Below the pieces are notes generated by a model. That model was not told the DNA's origin and made no database searches. It saw only the letters and a list, made by a program, of their open reading frames with translations. From NCBI RefSeq assembly GCF_011397635.1, contig NC_064763.1:23511437-23575436 (forward strand): a stretch of 64,000 bases of DNA, written 5' to 3'. Positions 964-63,865 of this stretch are shown one piece after another; the stretch's first letter is position 1, and the number at the start of each line of letters is the position of its first letter. Made by a program: the position numbers and the translations under genes. Source of the DNA: Epinephelus fuscoguttatus (lineage: Eukaryota; Chordata; Actinopteri; Perciformes; Serranidae).

Positions 964-3900
964 CTGAAAGCACAAAAACCAACAGTGAGTTCATTTTTCC
1001 AGACAAAATCTGATGTTAAAGACAGAGCATGGGATGGATGTGACTCACGTTCACGGGTGCTGGAGGAGAGCAGCTTAGCCAGGCAGCTGGTGGGTGTGGG
1101 TGTGGTGGACGGGGGGACCATGGAGGGACTGACTGTCCTCACTCCCCCTGTCTTCTGCTTGTGCTTCCCTCTGACTCCTGTGACAGCCACCTGCTCCGGG
1201 ACTGAGAAGCAGTGGGCCGTGGTGACGGAGGGCTGCGCTGCGTGGACCGGGTCAGACACGGTGGCTGAGTAACTGAGTGATTGGCAGGGAGTCAGGGGGT
1301 AAGTGTCCACTGTGTGAGGGTAGCCATGAGCCTGGTGCACGGAGCCCTGGGCCCCCGTGGTGGAGGCGGTGTGAGTGATGACGGTGGGGGTCACGCTGGT
1401 TGTTGTGTAGTAACCAAACTTGTGGCAGGGTAGTGGGTAGAAAAAAGCGATACTCGAAGAGGGCGGCTGCTCAATGCTGGAGCTGAATGCTACAGAAACG
1501 GAAGGATCAGGGTATGACTCATGTCCATACGGCATGGCGCCTGATGGGATGCTAGACGTGTTGTATTCACCACAATCCTGGCCCGGCCCGGTTTGGTCTA
1601 GCCTGGTGTTAGAGGAGGAGGGCTGAAGCAAATTGTCAGATGACAGATTTGGCTGGAGAAAAAAGCATAAGATGAGATAACAAAGCTTCTCCTGGTTCAT
1701 TATGTCGATTCTTGAGAAAACAAAATGCTGCAAAATTTTGCAAGACAACAAAATAATTCATCAAGAGAAAATAACTTTTGTTTTCTTGCAATCATGCGAT
1801 AATTGCATTGTGGTCAAGTGAGCCATCATTTGAGGAAATCTCGGTAAAGTCAGCCATCATTTCAACTTTGATGCTTCTCTATTCTTGGTGTTATGATAGA
1901 GATGCTTGGAGCAGCCAAAAAAGATGAAGAAAGACCACAGATCACATTTCGTAGGAGCCAGAATGTGTAATCAACCTCTGTTGTTTATTATTTGTTTAGG
2001 CTGCACACATTCTTTTGGTCACTTTCACTTGAGGTAATTGTACTTGTCACAGGGGTGGGTGTGGTTTCACATTATTTTACCTGTTCATTCACTGGTGTGG
2101 TGGCTTTTGGCTCAGATCATATCATTTAATCTCAGTTTGCTTTGGTTATCTCAGTTGTTTGTTTATTATATCACCATAAAACACATCTTTGTACTTCAGC
2201 ATGGATTTTATTGAACGCGTCACAGTTACAAGCCTACTCAGCCTCTTAGCTGCTTTTTTTCATTGATACTAGTCACTACAAATTTGATATGCCAAGCTAA
2301 AGCATCCTGTTGGACTTAAACACATAACAAGGTCAGCATGGAAGTGTTAAAAGATATATTTATAGTATTATATTTAAATAAAGGTAGCTCCAGATTTAAA
2401 ATATCATCAATTAATTACCTTTGACCTGCCATAAAAACCTTTCCGACGTAGATTAGCTGAAATTTCCAATGGATCCCTGTACAGGACGACCCTGACTAGG
2501 AACAGGCAAAGGTTTATATGGCTTTACTGTACAGATTTTAAGAAATTTAAAGGAAAAGTCACCTCAACTTACACAATAACACATCACTCATAACTTCCTC
2601 ACAACAGCTCACTGGACCGCAGTATAATTCTCTCATAATCTCAAGGAAGCAAAAGTCATTTTCTCGTCAAATCAGCCTTTTGTTTTATCGAGAATCCACA
2701 AAATTTAACAGGTTATCATGAGAAAATGAGCTTTGTTCATGCTTGTACAGTTTTCCCAGGAGACCGGTTTCCTCACAGTTCTCCTGTATTTCTTAACAAA
2801 TGATGATGACAAATTTTCACACCTTTTTGTCCTGTATGTTATCATAACCTGTTTCTGGCTAAGTACTGTACAGCGTGTATAAAGCCTATGACTCTAAAAG
2901 TGTGCTTCCCCTATCTCCCCCCTTCTCTGACCCTTGTGAGAGCCCGTCGTACCCGCATGAGTTGGGTACAGCTGCCGGCAGACACCTCATCTCTGCACTG
3001 ACCGCGTATGACTTATGTATGTGTAAGTCTGACAGGATGCTCTAACAGGGATTTGAGGGGTGCCCTGGGGGGCTGACTTGCCCTCTTCTGCTGCGGTGTG
3101 GTGTCCAGCTGTCTTCTAGAGACTGTTAAGCCCTGCTTAGGCATTCAAATTAAATACTTTAAACATCAAAATGCTGATCTTATACGTTATGTTTGGTTAT
3201 TTACATTCTTTAAAAGTCACCAGAGTGCAGGTAACAAAGTCTATGAAACTCAATTTTTTCCTGGGAGAGACCCTCTGACCCCTCTTTTGTGTCAAAATCC
3301 TATTTTTGAGATCTCAAGGTCGGGAAGTACGGCTTTGTTAATCTCAAGATAACACAGTCGCTCTCGGCTTCTGTACAACAGCACTATTGGTTGCTAATGA
3401 AGTATTCCTGCAGTGTTACACGTCACAAATAGGAGGAGGAGCTGTTCACAGCGTCAATACCTGAGCCAGCTGGGTGTCGATAAGTAGCTGAGGAGTTGTC
3501 ACCACAGGGGAGGGAACTGGAGCGAACGCTGTGTTGGGTGAGCTCTCAAAATAGCCACAGTCAGCAAAACCAGTCTGCTCGGCAGGCTGGCCCCTGTAGT
3601 TCATAAAGATATCTGAGGAAAGAATGCACACTGTTAATCAGACTGTCAGGTGTGACAATAAAGACGATACACACACGAAAACAGGCCAAGAGCGAGAAGA
3701 TTAGCTCTTAGTGCCTGTCCCCGGGTCTGATTCCCCGCCAAATCAGACTAAACAATCCATAGCACGCAGACTGAAGAGCCTACGCTTACATTTCTAGTTA
3801 AAAGGAAGCAGGGGGAAATTTTTCTTTAGAGAATTTCATTTTTGACGTTATATTTTGTAGTTACGGCTGAAACGGCAGCAGGATCAGCAAAGAGAAGACA

Positions 3901-5307
3901 AAAAGAATTCACCAAAGAGCAAAAACTAGCAATGGGGGACAACGATAGAGGACGGGCAGCAACACGAGTCAACACGGTCGTTCACTTAACAGATGTAGAG
4001 AACTGCGAGACCTGGAAGAATTCAAAATCGCTAACCCCTTCCTCCTAGACAGGCAGGAGATATGTCTTTTTTAATCTTTAAATACATTGTGAGACGTAGT
4101 TTCACGTCAATATATGAATTTACGTTGTGCGTTTGCACCCGCTAGCTAGCTAGATCTTTATGACATGAGGCAAGGGGGCTCATGGATACACTACCACTTT
4201 TGTCCACAGGGACCGCCAAAATCAACACAAAATGAAAGTTCCTTTTTAGGGACCTATCACTATGTTTCCTGCAGCTCTACAGCCTCTAAATGTGGGTGGT
4301 TTTTAGCAACCTATTGCTGTTTTCCTAGCGAGGACAGTAGCACAAAAAGTGGTTGTCTTTTTACCAAGACATCGCTGCTTTTCCAGCAGGGACTGCGTCC
4401 CCAGTACCCGGTATTTTAAGCTAAAACATGATCTTTTTCTAACTAGAATTAGAATTTTTGTGCCTAAATCCAACCACATCTTCACCACAGTGTTATTGAA
4501 TTGTAAAGTTTCAACATATCTGCCACATAATAACACTTGTGATATGCAGAAACATGCAATGCCAACATTGTAGAGATTGGGTTGATTCATTTTTGCCACC
4601 TCAAATGACGTGACACCACAGGCACAAAATGCTTCCGTTTATGTAACAGATATGGCTGAAAGTCTCCTGGAATTACTACTGTCAGTCTGCTGTCTGATAT
4701 CACAGTCATGGCTTCAGTTCAGTAATTCAAACAACAAAAACAAAAATATAAAAGCACAGAGCCAAAACATCAGACAAAATGCAGTGAGGCGCTCTGTATG
4801 AGGTGGTCATTCAGCTTCATATCTGCCAGGTCACATATTTGTGGAGCCACACTGGCAACTGACTGTGCCAAGCTGCCATCTGTGATTAAAACTGTGTCTT
4901 CACATCTGACGGCACCGAAGTCAAACCAAGTTCTCACCAGCTGGAGAGACAAATACAAACTCACTGGCTTCTGTCGATGAAACTTTGATTTCATGTCGTG
5001 AACACATACAGTATTCAAAATCCAGTACAACACGAGCTCTGTGAACACACCGCAAAAAATTGTGACGCAGTCTGAAAGTACATACCAGCCTGTCTGTGTT
5101 TTCATCTCAGTGAGGAGAAACTAGTGGCATGCCTCAGACAAGTAATCTGACTGTATTTCCATGTAAGAGAAGCAGTCTGCATAAATTAAACTCAAGGCCG
5201 TGTCGCTCTGACAGACACTCACTAGCTCCCTGGATCTTGTGACCAAAAGAGAGGCAGACAGCTGATCCCTGAGGCCCCTGCCAATGCTGTGAGAACAAAC
5301 ACCCCCC

Positions 5308-5352
<45 letters not shown>

Positions 5353-8300
5353 GCACACATATTACAGCAGTGGGCAGCAGGTTGTCTGTGGGTTACAAAG
5401 GCTGACTTGTAGCCACGGGGCTGCAGGACTGCTTCACTGAGAGCAACACAAAGGCCACAACAACCACAGCCATTGTGCCCCTGAGCAAAAAAAATAAACT
5501 CTTCAGCTTTCTGTCTTTTTGCAGTCGAGCTGACTGGAAAGCAGCCATGGGTGAATTTCCCCACTGGGGATCAGTTAAGGTGTATCTTAAAACTTTCCCT
5601 GCCTCTCAATAGCAATGAAACAGACAGTGCTGATAAAATCAGGATGTGCTTTCTGCTAAGTTGTCCCTGAGCCACGGGGCCCTGATTTCAAAAGCTGCGT
5701 CTCTTTTAGTCTTCAGTCTGGACTTTGCAACAAACAGCAGACCTGTGCCTGAGGATCTCAAACTACGCAGAGGTTCACAAGGAATTAAAAGGTCTGAAAT
5801 GTTTGTATCAGTACAGGGTCAAGTTGCATAACACCTCTTCTGAAAAGCTATGCCAGTGTGCATCTCTCCTCTCTCACTCACTCACTCACTCACTCACTCA
5901 CTCACTCACTCACTCACTCACAGGTTCTCAATCTACACTCAGAGAGACACAGAGCTGCTCCTCTGTTAAGTCTGTCTGTTATCAGTCAACAGTGTGACAT
6001 CGATTTATATGTTGCACATGCTACGCTAAATCAGTCTGTGAGATGAATGTAATGACCGCAGTAGCACATGTGCAATCCAGCTCTGCGCTGCATTTGTGGG
6101 AGACAGATCTACTTGATTGTGTCAGGTGAGCGTTTGTTTGCCAGTTTGTGTGTGAGGTGGATCATAGCGCTGCGCCGTTCTTTTAGGTAGTTGTAGTCTA
6201 TTGTGTGACGTGGAGGCAGCGCCTGGATGCAGGCGACAGATGGGTTTAAAAAAAGTAGCAGCAACACAGACTTTTCTTTTGCAAGACGAATATAAGGAGG
6301 ACAAAGTGTCTCTTGCTCCTTCCCTCCCTCGGCCTCTCTGATGATGCTATGTGCAGAAATAAGATTAATTATAACCTAAATAAATAAAAATATTTAAATC
6401 ATTTTCCAGCACTAGAGCCATGGAAAGACCATGGAAAATGACTTTGCTCAAAATGAAGCTACAAATCTGCTTAGGTAACCATCAGAATGATCTTCTTCAG
6501 AGGTCATCAAGAGCTGATTTTAGAAGGAAATCCCACCATCTCACAGCCCATCCTTTTATTTACCCTGGCCTCGTAGCTAAATACATCCTCTTCCACTTCC
6601 CCATTCTCCAGGCTTCACCCTGCCTTTGACCCCCATCTAACCTCTGAGGACCAAACAATATAGTGCAGACACAGCATATAAACGAAGGAGTGTCACTCGA
6701 GAACCGATTGTTCGATGCAAAAGCCATCTACAGTAGAAAAACAATTTACACATCAAAAATTTAAACCTCTGCATTAAGCAATTAAACCTTAAATTCAGAT
6801 TGTAAGATTTAATTCTAGAATACATTACTTTGTTTTAATTTTTTTTGTCCATGGCGAAATTCATGAGTCAGGATAAGAGCCTTGTTCTGTGGCTTGTCAG
6901 AATGTAGACACTAAATTCTCAGGCTGAAAGGTTAGTGATTAATGACCCATGTCTTATCGAGATCAGTTCACACGTCTTCTATCAACTATCAAATATATTT
7001 TTCTGCACTAAATCCAGCACACATGTGCCACAGTGATAGCTGAAACTGGATGGATACTCAGACACAAAATCAATCAGGGGTATTGACCTGCAGATAGACG
7101 GACAGACAGACAGACAGATGGACAGGTAGAGAGTACCTGGTATATCCATGAAATCATCCAGGTTGGGCTGCAGTGGAGTCAGGCCTGGCTGGATTATATC
7201 AGCATTGCTGGTGTACGCTGAGGAGGAAGAGAACATCTTATATGAGTGAGTGAGTGAGTCTGTTAATGTGTCTGCCTTATTGTGAGTGCTTTCTTTCATC
7301 ATAGGGAATTTCCTTATTTGTGGGGTGGCTTCCTTTGGCTGATTTGCTGACCCATGTGACCCATCAGCCACACCAAGTGTTAGAATATTAAAGCCCTAAT
7401 CCTGTCATGCAGCTCACAGGCCACGAGGTGTCCATCCTTTTTTTTAAAAACACTTTCAATGATTTGATTTAGTTTTGAGACCAGTATAAAGTCACAGCTG
7501 AAATTCACTCAGAGTACTGACTACTCACTGTCGTGTCGGTCACTGGCCCAGGGACATGGCTGCTTTTGTGTCATGGTGAACAGGGTGTCGGAGATATCGG
7601 ACAGGAGGCAGTCCAGGTCAAACATGTGGACCTCCGCCGGCGCAGCCTCAGGCTCCTGGTATATCTGATTGGACCATTTCTCCAGCTTGGCCTGGCAGAT
7701 CTGACCCTGGAGCACATCAGATCCAAACACAAGGTCAAATTTTAGTGAACAGTCAATCCCTGATCTATCCACTAGAGTGCTCCCTACAAACATGACTGAA
7801 AAGGCAAAGTGATGGCATTTGGTTCTCCTGCACCTGTATATGTCCAGCATTTGGTGTTGTATGGAAAGTGTGAAAGGTAATGACTCCCAAAAGCCTGTCC
7901 TGTTTTTTTGCACTGAGAAAGTTCAAGCTACAGCATACAGTATGGTTAGATATATTAGATACTAAGAAATGTTGGCATTGTACAGTACATCTCTTCAAAC
8001 TACAGATATGTTGTATTTGCACCTTATATGTAGCGAATACATTTAAACTTCAACGCTGTGGTTAACTTGGTTTTGTTTAGGCACAAAAACTACTTGGTTA
8101 TGGTTCAGAAAAGATCACATTTTGGCTTAAAATACCTAGTTTGGGTGCACAATCCCTGCTGGACAAGCAGCTATGTCTCAGTAAACAACAAGCGCTTTTA
8201 ATGGCACTATCCCTTTTGGAAAAACAGTGACTGGACGCTTCAAGTCACCCACGCTTGGTGCCTAAAAAGCTGGCTGGAAACATAGTGACAACCATGTTTG

Positions 8301-14300: not shown

Positions 14301-17300
14301 GTCAAGATATCTCTCTCAAAACCACAAATGTGAACCCTATTTATAAAAAAAAAGTCAGGAAATCTCCAAAGGAATTATCCTCTGGGAACCATGATTGCCT
14401 GTACCAAATTTCAGATCAACCAATAGTTGAGATTTTTCAGTCTGGAGCAACCAACAGCCATGCTGCTAGCATTGCTAAAAATATTGTAGAGATAAAAAAT
14501 GTGTTCTGTAAAAAAACAAATTAAAAAAAGAATGCTCACCCTCTTCTTATAGTAAATCCTCCACTTGTGATACTCCTTGATCACCACTTCAATCCTTCGC
14601 TTCCAGTAGCTGCCCTCTAATACAATGGCCTGTTGACATGATGCAAAAACACAAAGTACAAACCTTACATGTCTCGCCTCATCAGTGTACAATACAAAAA
14701 TGTGAACTCAGCAATATAAACATTAATGTTTTAACTGAATTTGAAACAATGTGTTGCTGAAAAGAAAGTTAGTTTGTGCTTAAACAGCTGAATCGGATTA
14801 AAACAACCACAAGGTACTTCATTTTTGTGTTGATTTTGGCACCACCTGTGGACAAAAGCGGTAGTGTTTCCATAAGCACCACCCCATTGTGTTATCAAGA
14901 TCTTGATCTGGTAGTGCCTGCATTTGTTTTCGAAGTCGGCATACCGACACACTGCCACTTTATCCTGTTAAAACAATACTCACAACTTGGATTCATTTTT
15001 ATTTTTATTACGGACTAAAGGAATATAGTTAACTTACAGGTTAATCAAGGAATAGACACATAATTTGAGGAAGCCGACAACCTGGTTTTATACATCCAAA
15101 GAACTTCTATTAAAAAATGAACTGCTTGGCAACCAGACCAGGCCTCTAATTGAGACAGGCGTGTATTTGTCAAAATGTGTAGCCACACTGGGCTAGTAAA
15201 AGGGACAAGGCCTTTATTTGGGACTAAGGTTTTAATTGAAGTTTTACCGTATTTGTGGCTATGTCAGATTAATAACTGCAATGTTATGGTGGTGAAACAA
15301 AGTAAAGTTTGTTTTAGCCACAAATGTAATGTATTTCCTCAAAAAAGCTGATATATTACATCACAGTTTCAGCCATAACCACAAAATATAATGTCAAAAA
15401 TAATTTTCTCTACAGAAAAATCTCCCCCTGCTTCCTTTCAACTGGCTAACGTACTACTCACTGCCAAACTCTGCCCGCGCGGGGACAGGCATTAAGAATA
15501 TAGAAATAGATGGTGTTCTCGCTGTTTATTTTGTTTGCTTATGTAGGTCATAAAGAGGTATCAGTATCAAATTGAGACTGTTTCACAACCAGTTAAATAC
15601 CTCCTTGTAGCTGCTTTAAAAATACATTCCCCTGTGACGCAAATCACTCACTTCAGGCTTTCGATGCGCATCTGCCTCCGAGCCCTCCAGCGGCGTGACA
15701 AACCCACACGCTAGGTTCTTCCTCTTCTCAACATCTAAATACAGAAGACACAAATAAGCATCAATAAGTAATAGTGGAGAGGTGTTAAAGATAATGATGG
15801 CAGAAGAGAGGTGGTGAAGAGCGGTGGACTCACACTGAATGAACCAAGCTCTCCAGATTGCGTTGTTCAGACGGATCTTATCTCTCCACAGCAACCGCAG
15901 ACCCTTAAAGGACTTCCACTTTGGAGAGACTATCTTACCACTGTACAAAAAAAACAAAATAAAACCCACACACAATTAATCTTAAAGTATACATTAGTAC
16001 GGGAGCTGAGAAGGGCCATATTTGCCCACTTTTATGCCGTTATCCCAAGATCACAAGTTAATTACTTCATTGTCTCGGCATAACAGTGCTTGTTTTCTCC
16101 TGACAACAGGTTAATTTATGTTGATTCTCAAGAAAACAAAAGACTTGGGCATCATTCAGCCCAGTCACCAAAAAATGTGTTTGTGCTGTATATTTCTGCA
16201 AACCACGGATGTTACATTTGCACGTTATAATGTAACAGATACGCTAAAACTTTGCGTTTTAACAATGCTGTGGCTAACGTGTGGTCAGGTTTAACCACAA
16301 AAAATACTTTGCTATGGTTAGGAAAATATCATGTTTTGGCTTAAAGAAATCCTGCTTTTGGGGCCACAATTCCGACTGGAAACGTAGCAATGTGACAGCG
16401 TTTCATGCTACTATCCCTCCTGGAAAAACAGCGATACCTAAAAAGCCACTGGAAACACAGCGTTGTCTCACTAGATCACAACTGGTTTTGTTTGGTGGTC
16501 TCAGACAGTGGTCTTGGCAGGTGTCTTGCCTTGCTATCAACCATCCCCTCCACCTCACAGTGACAGAGTCAGCTCATATACTACATCACTTTAGAAAGGT
16601 TGATATGATTCATATGAAACATGAAAATGTAACATTTTCACGATTTGCAGCAACGCACAATGCCAGCATTTTCTTCTGGCGACTGGGCTGGTATTCCAAG
16701 ACCTCAAGAAATCACAAGTTGTTTTCTTGTGATAAACCAGCTTTGTTATCTCAAGATACTGGCAAAACAACGCAAGCAGGGCTGTTCTTGGCATCTGTAT
16801 ATTTGTTTATGAAAAATGGGCAATGTTCATAAGGATTAAGGGCCCTGACACACCAGACCGACTGTCAGCCATCGGTCAATGTCAGTGAGTGAGTGAGCAT
16901 CTGTCGTCTAGGTTTTTGTGGTGTGTCCCACACTGTTGGCCTTTGCCAGCTGTTTCTCAGCTGATACAGTGTACAGTGACAGCAGAGCCCGTCAGTGAGT
17001 GAAATTCCTCTGACTGGCGGTCCAGCTCAGTACATGAGAGGAGAGACAGAAGCAAGGAAAGCAAACACACGACTAAAGTCAAGAGGGCACGAGGTTATAA
17101 AACTTGTTTTATTAGGTGAGGTTATTTTTAGCCACTGAGTTCTATACCAGGCAATATCTTACCAAGGATACTTCTACATGCAGACTGGAGGAGCCGGGGA
17201 TTGAACTGCCAATCTTCTGATTAGTGGACGACCCACTCTACCTCTGAGACCCCTCTCACGCAGGTGCAGAATGTACATGTTGGTTGGACGTTGGCTGTAG

Positions 17301-19258: not shown

Positions 19259-22200
19259 GCTGCGTTTACATTCAGTGGTGACCGTCCGGCTCAGACTGTG
19301 AACTTTCTCCTCAGCTGACCCTATTCCTGTTTACACCAGATATTCCAGTGTCTCCTGAGAGAAGACAGCACAGAGGCCTGTCTGCCGAGAGACAACTGTG
19401 TCTCATCTGTCTGCTCAGAGACACCCGTGTCCCTCACAGCTGTGTGTATGTCTGTGGACTGTTGTGTAAGAGCATACTATCACTGTGTCAACTTCCTATG
19501 GTGGTAAAGTCCTTCTCTCCACCAATCACTGAAGGCGGTAATTATTAATAGACTAATTATTATTAATATTGTCTGAAATCCTCAACACTGCATCTGTACT
19601 CAGTAACAGGGCTCTTTCAGATTGGCCTTTTTGCACTCTGTTTTATTTCACTTTATTCTACATACTCTAACTTTTAACTTTATTTTCATCATTACTAAAC
19701 GATTATTCAGTGGGTTTTATTTTCCATCTTATTTTATGCATTCTATCTCGACCTTGTTTTTGTCTATCTTCATCTTATCTTGTTTTACATTAGTTAGCCT
19801 TTAGCAGTCTATCGCTGTTGTAATGTCAATTTTACGTCTATTTTTATTTCATTTTCTATTTCCGTATGGTAAAGCACTTTCAGCTGCATTTCTTATTTAT
19901 AAAGGTACAAAAAAGCTAGTTATTATTTTAACTTTAATTTGATTTTTTTTTTTTTTAGCATAATAATAAAGTAGGTTACGGTAAAACTTACACCCCGCTT
20001 TGCCACTACGAAAATTGGCGAACATCATGGGGGCCTGGTCGTCTTCCACAGAGCTCACCATGATATTTCTACTGTAGCCCAAGACAGACAAACTCAACAC
20101 TGACTCTAGATAGGGCCATTTGCATTTTTGCGTCAGCCATCGTAGTTCTCTTACACGTTTCAGTTAGTTGTGATCTGCAATCTAACCACTAGATGCCACT
20201 AAATCCTACACACTAGACCTTTGATTTTCCTCATATATTCTTTAACTATACTAATTATAGGAGCCACCCATGGTGGAAAATGTGTGTAGGTTGCTAAATC
20301 GACCTGAGGGGGTCACTGTATTGTCATGGGTGTCCGTCAGTATGAGGGACAGGTGTTGCTAGACAGGGGAGCTCAATTTTTTGACCTCAACGCTGGGCCA
20401 CGTGAAGTGAGGTGTACATTTGACTGGTGTGTGGACACAGTTTTTCATTGAAGACTAAAGTGGTGATAGGTAAATTATGCATCAAATACGAAGAAAAAGA
20501 AGTGGACGTCATCGGTTGAGCGAGCTCGTCAGTAAGTTTAGGCTTAGGCGCTACACTAATAAAGTAGGGTAATTGTGTTAGCAGGCTATTCTCAGATAGG
20601 ATACCATTTTTAATTTCAATTAGCCAGATGTGGAGTGAGTGCATTTACTCAAGTATTTGAAAATGTGTTAATCTCTCCGTCAGGGTGCCCATATAGACAC
20701 TGAAACAGGTTTTGCTTGTTGTAATTTTTTTTCCTGTTGAGAGATCCTTTCCTAATGTACTTCCAATAAGAGGAGACAAAACTCAAAGACAAACACTTCT
20801 CGCTGTGTTAATATTCCAAGTATATCTAAACTTACTATGAGGCTTCAGCGGCATGGCTTTGCTGAATCAACTCTGTATCTTCCTGAGTTAGTCTTTTTAT
20901 TAATAATAAAAGAAAATGCTTTCTCTGGCTCCACAAAGAATCACTGTCAGGGAAAACACAAAGAGGGAAATTCATACCAATAACTTCATATGCAAAGATT
21001 TTAAAGGAATTCACAAAATGAGCATTTCATTTTCAAATACTCACCCCAAGTTACCTTGGATTTGTGAAGAAAACTCCTGCGTTTTTCTCACATGCTTTCA
21101 CTGTGAATAAGTGTCCAGAAGCAGAGAACATTCTTGATGAATTGACGTGAAGGGGGGTGGGGGGGGGGGTTTGGCAGTTACAACAGCAAATATCAAAACA
21201 TCAATTTACAAACCATCTCACAGCTCGTTCAGTATAATCCAAGTCTTTCGCACTAAAATCACATATGTGGAGGTGTCCCCTGTGTGTCCAATACAGTGAA
21301 AGATTTTGGTATGAAATCTGAGAAGCTGGGCCATGGACGTTACTGGAAAAAATGCCATTATTTTCTATTAAAATATTTATATAAAATAACTGAATTAATC
21401 GTAAGTAATGAAAATAAGTGCACTACATTAGAGCAATTTCATTTTTTAATTATAATTTTTCTCTTGAGAATAAGACCCTGTGTCTCAATGATATTCCCTG
21501 TTTGAATACAGGTTATGTGGATTTAGATTAATAAATAAATGCAGTCTGCATTTTGTTCATTTAATTTGAGTGGAGATAAATAATTGATTTCACTGAACAA
21601 GCTAATAATTAGTTAAAAAAGTCAGTAACAACATTTGATTTAATACATGTTCATGTAACCATGATGGTTTGTAAAAGGCATCAATATTTAAGATATATGT
21701 TAGGACAGTCATGTATGTTACTGTCGCTTTAAGAGAAGTGCTCTGGAGCACATGGAGGTAGTACCTTTGCCTTTACTTTCAACTTGCCACAGGTTAAATA
21801 AATAAAATGCAGCTGTTCATTACTCAGAGGGATTGTATGTTTTACTTTGGTGTTCTAGTAAATGTAGTTCAGCCACTTCTGCATTTCAAATGTCTGATTT
21901 ACACTGCATAAAAACACCATAAAATCATCCATTAATATCAAACTGTTTTATTGAACAAGGATCATTCATACTCTGCAGACTCGCCAAAGTATACCATTCA
22001 AATTTAGACTTACAGATATTATGGTCTTAGAGTCAAATCAATATTAGTAGACTTGCCAAGCCAGCTGGAAGTAAGCCCTGAGGCAGGGCTGTCCAGCTTT
22101 AAAACCAGAGGCTGTCACATACACTGAAGTGAGGACTGATTCTGTAAATTATTTCATGTCGTGGAGTTTCTTGAGAAATCGTCCCTTTATTGGCTTTAGG

Positions 22201-33553: not shown

Positions 33554-46352
<12,799 letters not shown>

Positions 46353-46495
46353 GGTCTGGAGAAAGTGACCCTGGTGGCGGAACCTTTGCGGAGATTCTTC
46401 GGACGTCAGAAAGAAAGAAGAAAAGTTCTTTTCATGCTCACTGACAGACGAGCGAGCGTCACTGCGGATGTTTTGCTACCTCTGCAAAAACGTCC

Positions 46496-62638: not shown

Positions 62639-62980
62639 TTAAAGGCGCTGTATGTAAGTATGTGGCCAAAACGGTCACTGCACTCAAATTCAAAATATAG
62701 CCGCGAGTCGCGTCCGCCCCCCTCCCCTACAGATTCAAGGCTGCTGGACAACGGCACGCTGGAGACTGATTTGTTTGCCCACAGGCGGCTGCCGTGGCAG
62801 GGCTGCGGTGATCTTCAGTTTTCCAGCAGACCATTCGAGCAAGTCCGGCTTCTCTGCTGCTAACGCTGCTGCCAGGATACAGCTGAGGAGACTGCTAATG
62901 CTATGTACCGGGACACTACTAATGCTGCTTGCCGTGCTGCGTTGTTTCTCAAAAAAAATCAGTCGGGTCGATGACCCACC

Positions 62981-63312
62981 TGCACAGGGTCCATGTCATT
63001 GGTTCGACAGCCCATTGGTTTGACATCCCATTAGTCCGACTGTCCGCGGTGCTGAACAGCTCACGGCGGGCGTATGGTGCGCCGCGACTGGCTCTGGGTC
63101 AGCTGGGAAAGGCTTGAGGCAGAGCAGGCTCACGGCTTATGTGTTTGTCACTTTCTTTTTCATTTTAACCCACACCAAGATCTTTTCCTGACCCTAACCA
63201 AGTGGTTTTTGTGCCTAAACCTAACCAGACCTTAACCACAGGGCATCATGATGATTTCAGAACGGACTTCGGAACAATGGGCTGTCGGACCAATGAGCAG
63301 TTCCCCCTGCAC
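62981..63312 (+). mobile_element. Nested MITE
   Basis: Inverted ends built on CATTGGTTCGACAGCCCATTG (62997-63017) and its near complement CAATGGGCTGTCGGACCAATG (63275-63295), about 40 bp each. Lies within the larger TTAA element. Confidence 0.7.
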
Positions 63313-63417
63313 ATGGGCTACAATGTATGATCAAAAATGAATAACAGTTGAAAGTATCTGAAATGTCCATCCCCGTCTAGCTATGATGCTAGTTAGCCAA
63401 CTTTAGCTAAAGCTTAC

Positions 63418-63593
63418 CTGTCGAGGAGAAGAGTAGCCACTTCGACATCTGATTTCAAATTCTTCTCCGCTTTCAACCAACTCCACCATTCAAAAGGATC
63501 TCCTATATAGACCCTCGCTTTGCCACGAGTTTTGTCTTGGTGTTTTTGGGAATCATAACGAGGTCGTTTGGGTTTAGTCACACCGTCAGCCAT
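63418..63593 (-). other. Exon-like open frame carried by the MITE (58 codons plus 2 nt, then a splice donor)
   Basis: On the minus strand an uninterrupted frame starts at ATG 63593 (MADGVTKPKRPRYDSQ...), includes KTRGKARVYIGDPFEWWSWL and ends LKSDVEVATLLLDR, followed directly by GTAAGC, a good donor. A basic N-terminus is followed by a Trp-rich core. I do not recognise a named domain. A decayed relative is at about 3860-4050. It could be a captured host exon or the remains of the element's own gene. Confidence 0.55.
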
Positions 63594-63865
63594 TGTAGCT
63601 CAGTCGTAACTATAACTGATGCTGAGACTCTACTGACTGTGTGACTGGTAGATGGCGGTGGGTGGCGCAACAGGCCAAAACACAAATTCAAAACATAAAC
63701 ATGATTTGCAGACCATAAATTTTTCTTTAAATGCGAATATTCTGGCTGTACTATTGTTGTTGGTGAGATCTGTATGTTATATGAACATTATTCCTTAGTC
63801 TCTGTGACATATTAGGATGATTTTACGACTATTTGCTTTAGATTTCTTACATATAGCTCCTTTAA

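Follow-up and report, generated by a model that had tools for sequence, protein, structure and literature searches.

Transposons of the T2/Kolobok group are described as flanked by TTAA and ending in AGGRR or RR (PMC6004289, accessible sections). The element examined here lies in a window of 64,000 nucleotides, the whole stretch of Epinephelus fuscoguttatus DNA that was analysed, and shares with the Kolobok superfamily the TTAA duplication and the 5'-RR (AG) ends (PMC6004289 and PMC9587614, accessible sections). The transposase of the loci linked to it is related to a THAP-bearing frame, whereas the window copy itself has no transposase. In their accessible sections, neither PMC6004289 nor PMC9587614 mentions for Kolobok an N-terminal exon of the type found in the window. 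The Kolobok-related T2-MITE of Xenopus is likewise short and abundant, has a TTAA site and an AGG end, and is presumed to be driven by Kolobok (PMC6004289, accessible sections). The window element differs from it in its host, in its coding exon with a splice donor and in its 3' end, which reads AGGCG and not AGGRR (the 5' end, AGGAG, fits); because of this 3' end it is not a strict T2-MITE.

MITEs are stated to lack coding capacity (PMC3517528, accessible part). The label of MITE, given to this repeat by a sequence-only reading, is appropriate insofar as the element is short, non-autonomous and abundant and has inverted ends. It does not hold in the strict sense, since the element retains coding capacity in the form of a first exon of 58 codons with its donor, open in 27 of 42 copies. 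Fusions of the CSB-PGBD3 type offer a further parallel, in that a transposon splice site permits joining to host exons (PMC3459987, accessible part). In that case host 5' exons join the transposase, whereas in the present one the 5' exon would come from the transposon. Titles and the opening lines of abstracts yielded no report of short Kolobok-type elements that keep a start exon, and the motifs of the exon peptide were not found as terms in any paper.

The start exon and the element that carries it

The open frame that had been proposed to run into a splice donor is present with precisely the limits given in Table 1; it comprises 58 codons plus a split codon, 59 residues in all, and ends in phase 2. 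An in-frame TAA lies within the donor and would stop an unspliced message after these 59 residues. In the genome searched (1,046,998,120 bases in 26 contigs), a whole-genome exact count finds the 20-mer spanning exon end and donor 130 times and its reversed control not once; this recurrence, together with the retention of the donor in the copies, rules out a chance open reading frame. The GT is retained by 41 and the full GTAAGC by 39 of the 42 distinct copies, and the consensus of the family reads MADGATKPKRPRYDSQKRQDKTRGKARVYIGDAFERWRRLKAEKNLKSDVEVATLLLDR. The tryptophan-rich core that had drawn attention to the frame exists in the window copy (EWWSWL) but is no trait of the family, whose consensus reads ERWRRL: CGG has become TGG in two of the three changes, the window form is unique among the 21 copies read, and it results from decay of this copy alone.

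Table 1. Features in the window and exon–transposase pairs elsewhere in the genome
Feature	Position	Strand	Remarks
Non-autonomous Kolobok-type element	62643-63861	minus	about 0.9 kb without nested insert; ends AGG(C/A)GCT(G/A)TATGTAAG
TTAA target-site duplication, left	62639-62642		read from sequence
TTAA target-site duplication, right	63862-63865		read from sequence
5' terminal region, putative promoter and 5' UTR	63594-63861	minus	promoter role putative
Open start exon	63418-63593	minus	58 codons + 2 nt (phase 2), 176 nt; reads MADGVTKPKRPRYDSQKHQDKTRGKARVYIGDPFEWWSWLKAEKNLKSDVEVATLLLDR, then GTAAGC
Splice donor GTAAGC	63412-63417	minus	directly 3' of the start exon; AG|GTAAGC
Nested 319-bp insertion with inverted-repeat ends	62987-63305		8-bp perfect direct repeat CCTGCACA at 62979-62986 and 63306-63313
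Homologous start exon of another repeat, decayed and frameshifted	3863-4053	plus	donor position now GC
Second copy, 5' part of the 3863 repeat	15366-15443	minus	88% over 78 bp to 3796-3873; exon part is ATGGCTGAAAC only
DEAH-box RNA helicase gene	33557-46475	minus	best PDB relatives DHX8 and DHX15
C19 pair	exon 16456418-16456579; transposase 16453365-16453658	same strand	about 2.76 kb apart
C1 pair	exon 50725248-50725409; transposase 50722235-50722528	same strand	about 2.72 kb apart
C13 pair	exon 268084-268233; transposase 264448-264720	same strand	coordinate comparison
C17 pair	exon 9302551-9302727; transposase 9299911-9300195	same strand	transposase from 2.36 kb downstream

The exon sits within an element whose ends, AGGAGCTATATGTAAG on the right and AGGCGCTGTATGTAAG (inverted) on the left, match at 90% over 20 nt and have TTAA beside each. 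Its termini, AG..CT, correspond to 5'-RR and YY-3'; the AG ends and the flanking TTAA agree with those of the Kolobok superfamily. The family consensus measures 923 bp including both TTAA. The 5' half is 93-95% identical in all 20 fetched copies, an exact TTAA precedes the 5' end in 17 of them (the exceptions being L013, L024 and L027), and the 20-mer formed by TTAA and the 3' end has 659 exact occurrences genome-wide, against none for its reversed control. The 20 fetched copies (L009-L028) align across the insertion point of the nested 319-bp segment and lack it; judging by its target size, we take this insertion to be hAT-like. Parts of it recur in the window at 8056-8133, 16268-16345 and 4413-4490, with about 74-79% identity over some 80 bp. 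A separate peculiarity of the element is an A/T-rich patch at consensus positions 120-185 of the 5' part, where non-CpG divergence reaches about 8-9%, compared with about 0.5-2% elsewhere.

The family is abundant. A DNA search of the genome gave 1285 loose first-look candidates, of which the best 40 were scored; the exon peptide gave 1870 candidates, the best 150 all scoring E < 1e-20, and the exon consensus gave 2628, of which 150 were scored. Fifty loci (L009-L058, with some copies represented more than once) were mapped to the consensus. The short form extends to the 3' end in 40 of them, while 10 do not reach it; no longer, transposase-bearing copy was seen in this set, nor was a transposase noticed by eye among the frames of at least 140 aa listed for L029-L058.

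With a cut-off as permissive as E 10, Pfam and NCBIfam assigned the window exon to no family, PDB sequences gave no credible match (best E 0.23), and tblastn against IMG/VR contigs and GTDB genomes found no relatives at E ≤ 1e-3. A structure model of the single exon sequence places helices at residues 33-43 and 49-57 and calls no strand; it is weak (mean pLDDT 63.8, pTM 0.35), so that the two-helix fold is uncertain. We presume that the exon may resemble a ribbon-helix-helix DNA-binding domain, a strand-helix-helix fold.

To follow decay across copies we assembled 42 distinct copies from 20 of the best 40 DNA matches and the 30 best protein matches, with duplicates removed and the window copy included. 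Intact copies are favoured in this set, as protein score was the criterion for 30 of its loci. The frame from ATG to donor is whole in 27 copies, so that other copies keeping frame and donor do exist, and a neutral simulation limited to point changes gives 27.7 (5-95%: 22-33). Three copies have frame-changing indels, eight have stops and six lack the ATG, in overlapping classes. Non-CpG divergence is 92/6298 (1.46%) in the exon versus 203/11664 (1.74%) in the non-coding part of the element, calculated without the variable A/T-rich patch, and changes at CpG sites number 139/1090 versus 118/781. The exon shows 70 synonymous, 151 non-synonymous and 6 stop changes, against 74.1, 183.4 and 13.6 expected, which gives a non-synonymous to synonymous ratio of 0.87 of the neutral expectation; by codon position 1, 2 and 3 the changes amount to 87, 65 and 75. 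Comparison of non-synonymous and synonymous change, which had been suggested as a check, thus reveals no constraint: there is no sign of purifying selection on the exon across the 42 copies, a result still compatible with selection at single copies. The exon is open in many copies because these are young; nothing in the comparison points to its upkeep by selection after insertion.

Related exons and their link to transposase loci

It had also been suggested that several repeats spread one start exon, and this idea proved largely right. A generic start-exon peptide, used as an approximate query, gave 3369 candidates, of which the best 150 scored E < 1e-12 with 52-73% identity. The best match, at C19:16456412-16456573, reads RKSTEEQKKAKRDSDRARAKTRVNLGRAFTKWRELRELKGFKTDPELALFLIDR, then GTATGA; it ends RAKTRVNLGRAFTKWRELRELKGFKTDPELALFLIDR|GTATGA, in the same split phase as the window exon, to which it is related at E 5e-10 in a two-sequence comparison. 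Its own family, in which this one copy was read, is large (3219 candidates, the best 150 all at E < 1e-21). Differences between the C19 exon and the window consensus fall on codon positions 1, 2 and 3 as 18, 12 and 21 over 39 codons, a pattern that weakly suggests a coding signature.

Within the window, the decayed frame noted at about 3860-4050 is indeed a homologous start exon: 24 aa match at 58% (E 3e-4) the start exon found upstream of a transposase, and RELRDLEEFK..FLLDR follows in another frame (E 0.01). The donor ending attributed to it is, however, gone, as the donor position reads GCAGGA and the GT is lost; the split phase is still that of the window exon. Among 31 candidates, the decayed 37-aa piece matched only itself at E ≤ 0.001, and the repeat is thus old or divergent. 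The repeat at about 15370-15500 belongs to the same family as 3796-3873, as far as the shared 5' part is concerned, but the two part just beyond ATGGCTGAAAC and no further exon follows. For the repeat running leftward from 20131, said to begin in the same way, we found no relationship. A tblastn of the window exon against the window returned no match for the frame at 20140 (minus), and of 56 genome sites matching ACGRTGGCYGMCGCRAAA seven carry the window's exact ACGATGGCTGACGCAAAA, a count that leaves out the ATGGCTGA variant, whose last variable base is G; on these grounds 20140 was rejected as a further start exon. What stands of the original idea is therefore a second abundant family plus the decayed exon at 3863-4053. 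As a separate observation, three decayed pieces of a related start exon are arrayed in tandem at L010:192-672, about 200 bp apart and close to an element of the window type.

Our first transposase query was an approximate Kolobok-like core of 289 aa, which matched 148 genome places, many of them apparently split into exons, judging by spacing. Pieces of the transposase read from the genome at C19 match 79 places, grouped in 55 clusters. In Pfam the C19 piece matched no transposase family, its two matches below the cut-off belonging to unrelated families; it shares 30% identity (E 5.7e-21) with a frame at L059. In the latter locus (L059:523-2256) a single frame encodes a Kolobok-type transposase whose N-terminus bears a THAP domain (E 2e-12) and whose lineage differs from that of the split-gene transposases.

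The flanks of about 1.5 kb on each side of the 30 best transposase loci (L059-L088) contained no convincing exon homolog, and the link between exon and transposase was therefore sought by genome coordinates. Exon places were taken from all matches of the exon-peptide and generic searches, plus 51 from the C19-exon search and 5 from the consensus search judged new by eye. Comparing the resulting 356 distinct places with the 55 clusters, four exons lie at most 4 kb upstream of a transposase on the same strand, where 0.037 would be expected, and within the same distance there is no pair on opposite strands and none with the exon downstream. Replacing the 356 places by the roughly 6000 first-look candidates raises the expectation to about 0.6 by the same formula, the pairs being counted from listed matches. 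With 48 matches picked by eye from the 148 (46 clusters), the same C19 locus is the sole pair. The remaining 51 of the 55 clusters have no listed exon upstream, and neither has a third close copy of the transposase (C2:6158243).

The distance from exon to transposase in the four pairs is 2.4-3.4 kb. They amount to fewer than four independent cases, given that C19 is both the locus of discovery and the source of the query, and C1 is its close kin: the C1 transposase is 94% and 91% identical to that of C19 in two pieces, and both loci have the exon at near-equal spacing. The exon at C17 belongs to the window type: it has no stops, shares 88% identity with the consensus and matches exactly at its end and donor. 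Where the 5' end of the family was predicted to lie, 55 bases were read and proved to be that end, TTAA included, TTAAAGGAGCTATATGTAAGAAATCTAAAGCAAATAGTCGTAAAATCC. Its transposase consists of a first match in a 286-aa open frame and a second with one TAG; stops also occur in the C1 transposase pieces and in the second pieces at C19 and C13. We infer that exon and transposase at C17 form one transcription unit within one element, although a short copy may have landed there by chance upstream of a transposase.

Origin of the exon

The four same-strand upstream pairs, and in particular the presence at C17 of the window family's exact 5' end, make it most likely that the coding part of the transposase gene itself begins with this exon, and that derivatives shortened by internal deletion have retained it. 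Accordingly phrased for the window, the element is very probably an internally deleted Kolobok-type derivative that retains its parent's ends, leader, first transposase exon and donor. Internal deletion of a full element would have removed the rest of the transposase gene and spared both ends, the 5' leader, exon 1 and the donor; transposase from full elements would then move the short derivative at TTAA sites, with the 5' leader presumably acting as promoter and full elements driving the short copies.

Other explanations have to be weighed against this one. The exon might be a host first exon that the element captured by transduplication and spread, with the transposase loci that carry it being coincidental or secondary. 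Such a history would account for homologous exons in more than one repeat family; we nevertheless consider it very unlikely, in view of the four same-strand pairs versus 0.037 expected and of the C17 exon lying inside the family's own 5' end, and because Pfam, NCBIfam and PDB sequences hold no homolog of the exon. Only a little less improbable, in our judgement, is that the exon represents a small accessory gene in its own right, carried by the transposon, and not part of the transposase. In this regard, some Kolobok lineages are described as having accessory proteins, KolX among them (PMC9587614, accessible sections), and the unspliced window-type frame stops just past the donor, giving a peptide of 59 aa. 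However, retention of the donor in nearly all copies and the split phase common to the window, C19 and 3863 exons (the last with its GT lost) point to onward splicing, and the strand that carries the exon also has a transposase 2.4-3.4 kb further downstream.

A selected role, in which hosts or elements make use of the spliced or unspliced N-terminal peptide and the exon is kept for that reason, would agree with the retention of exon and donor by numerous copies belonging to more than one family. Against it, the exon decays at the neutral rate outside CpG sites (1.46% versus 1.74%), the number of intact copies equals that of the neutral simulation, and the window copy, if spliced to exon 2 of the helicase gene downstream, would not keep the frame; this role thus appears improbable, if slightly less so than an accessory gene. 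The reading of the exon as a retained piece of the transposase gene offers, in turn, an explanation for the recurrence of one start-exon design in the genome, most likely as transposase-gene pieces carried by short derivatives.

Possible use by host genes

A transcribed copy could splice its start exon into any acceptor downstream, and host use is for this reason possible but incidental. That the exon may serve as a ready-made host first exon, as originally suggested, is accordingly a possibility that its open frame and donor allow. If used, such exons would be natural 5' exon traps with a fixed splice phase and a route for placing a transposon N-terminal domain onto host proteins. We propose, with considerable reserve, a broader scenario that seems rather unlikely at present: short elements of the Kolobok type, drawn from more than one family, might seed same-phase 5' exon traps (leader, ATG and a small basic, possibly DNA-binding domain), some of which would by now be first exons of host genes or sources of truncated peptides that regulate transposition. 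Even unused copies could still mislead gene prediction, since an exon that is open from its ATG and runs into a strong donor is found at many unrelated places.

Such use can be considered for a DEAH-box RNA helicase gene, presumably DHX33-like, which lies on the same strand as the exon and 17 kb downstream of it. In this gene exon 1 has a phase 1 end near 46142 and exon 2 starts near 44366, so that splicing of the window exon, with its phase 2 donor, to exon 2 would shift the frame. The region of this gene also harbours, at 35634-38362 on the plus strand, endonuclease/reverse-transcriptase-like frames of a non-LTR retrotransposon, as labelled from the reading frames.
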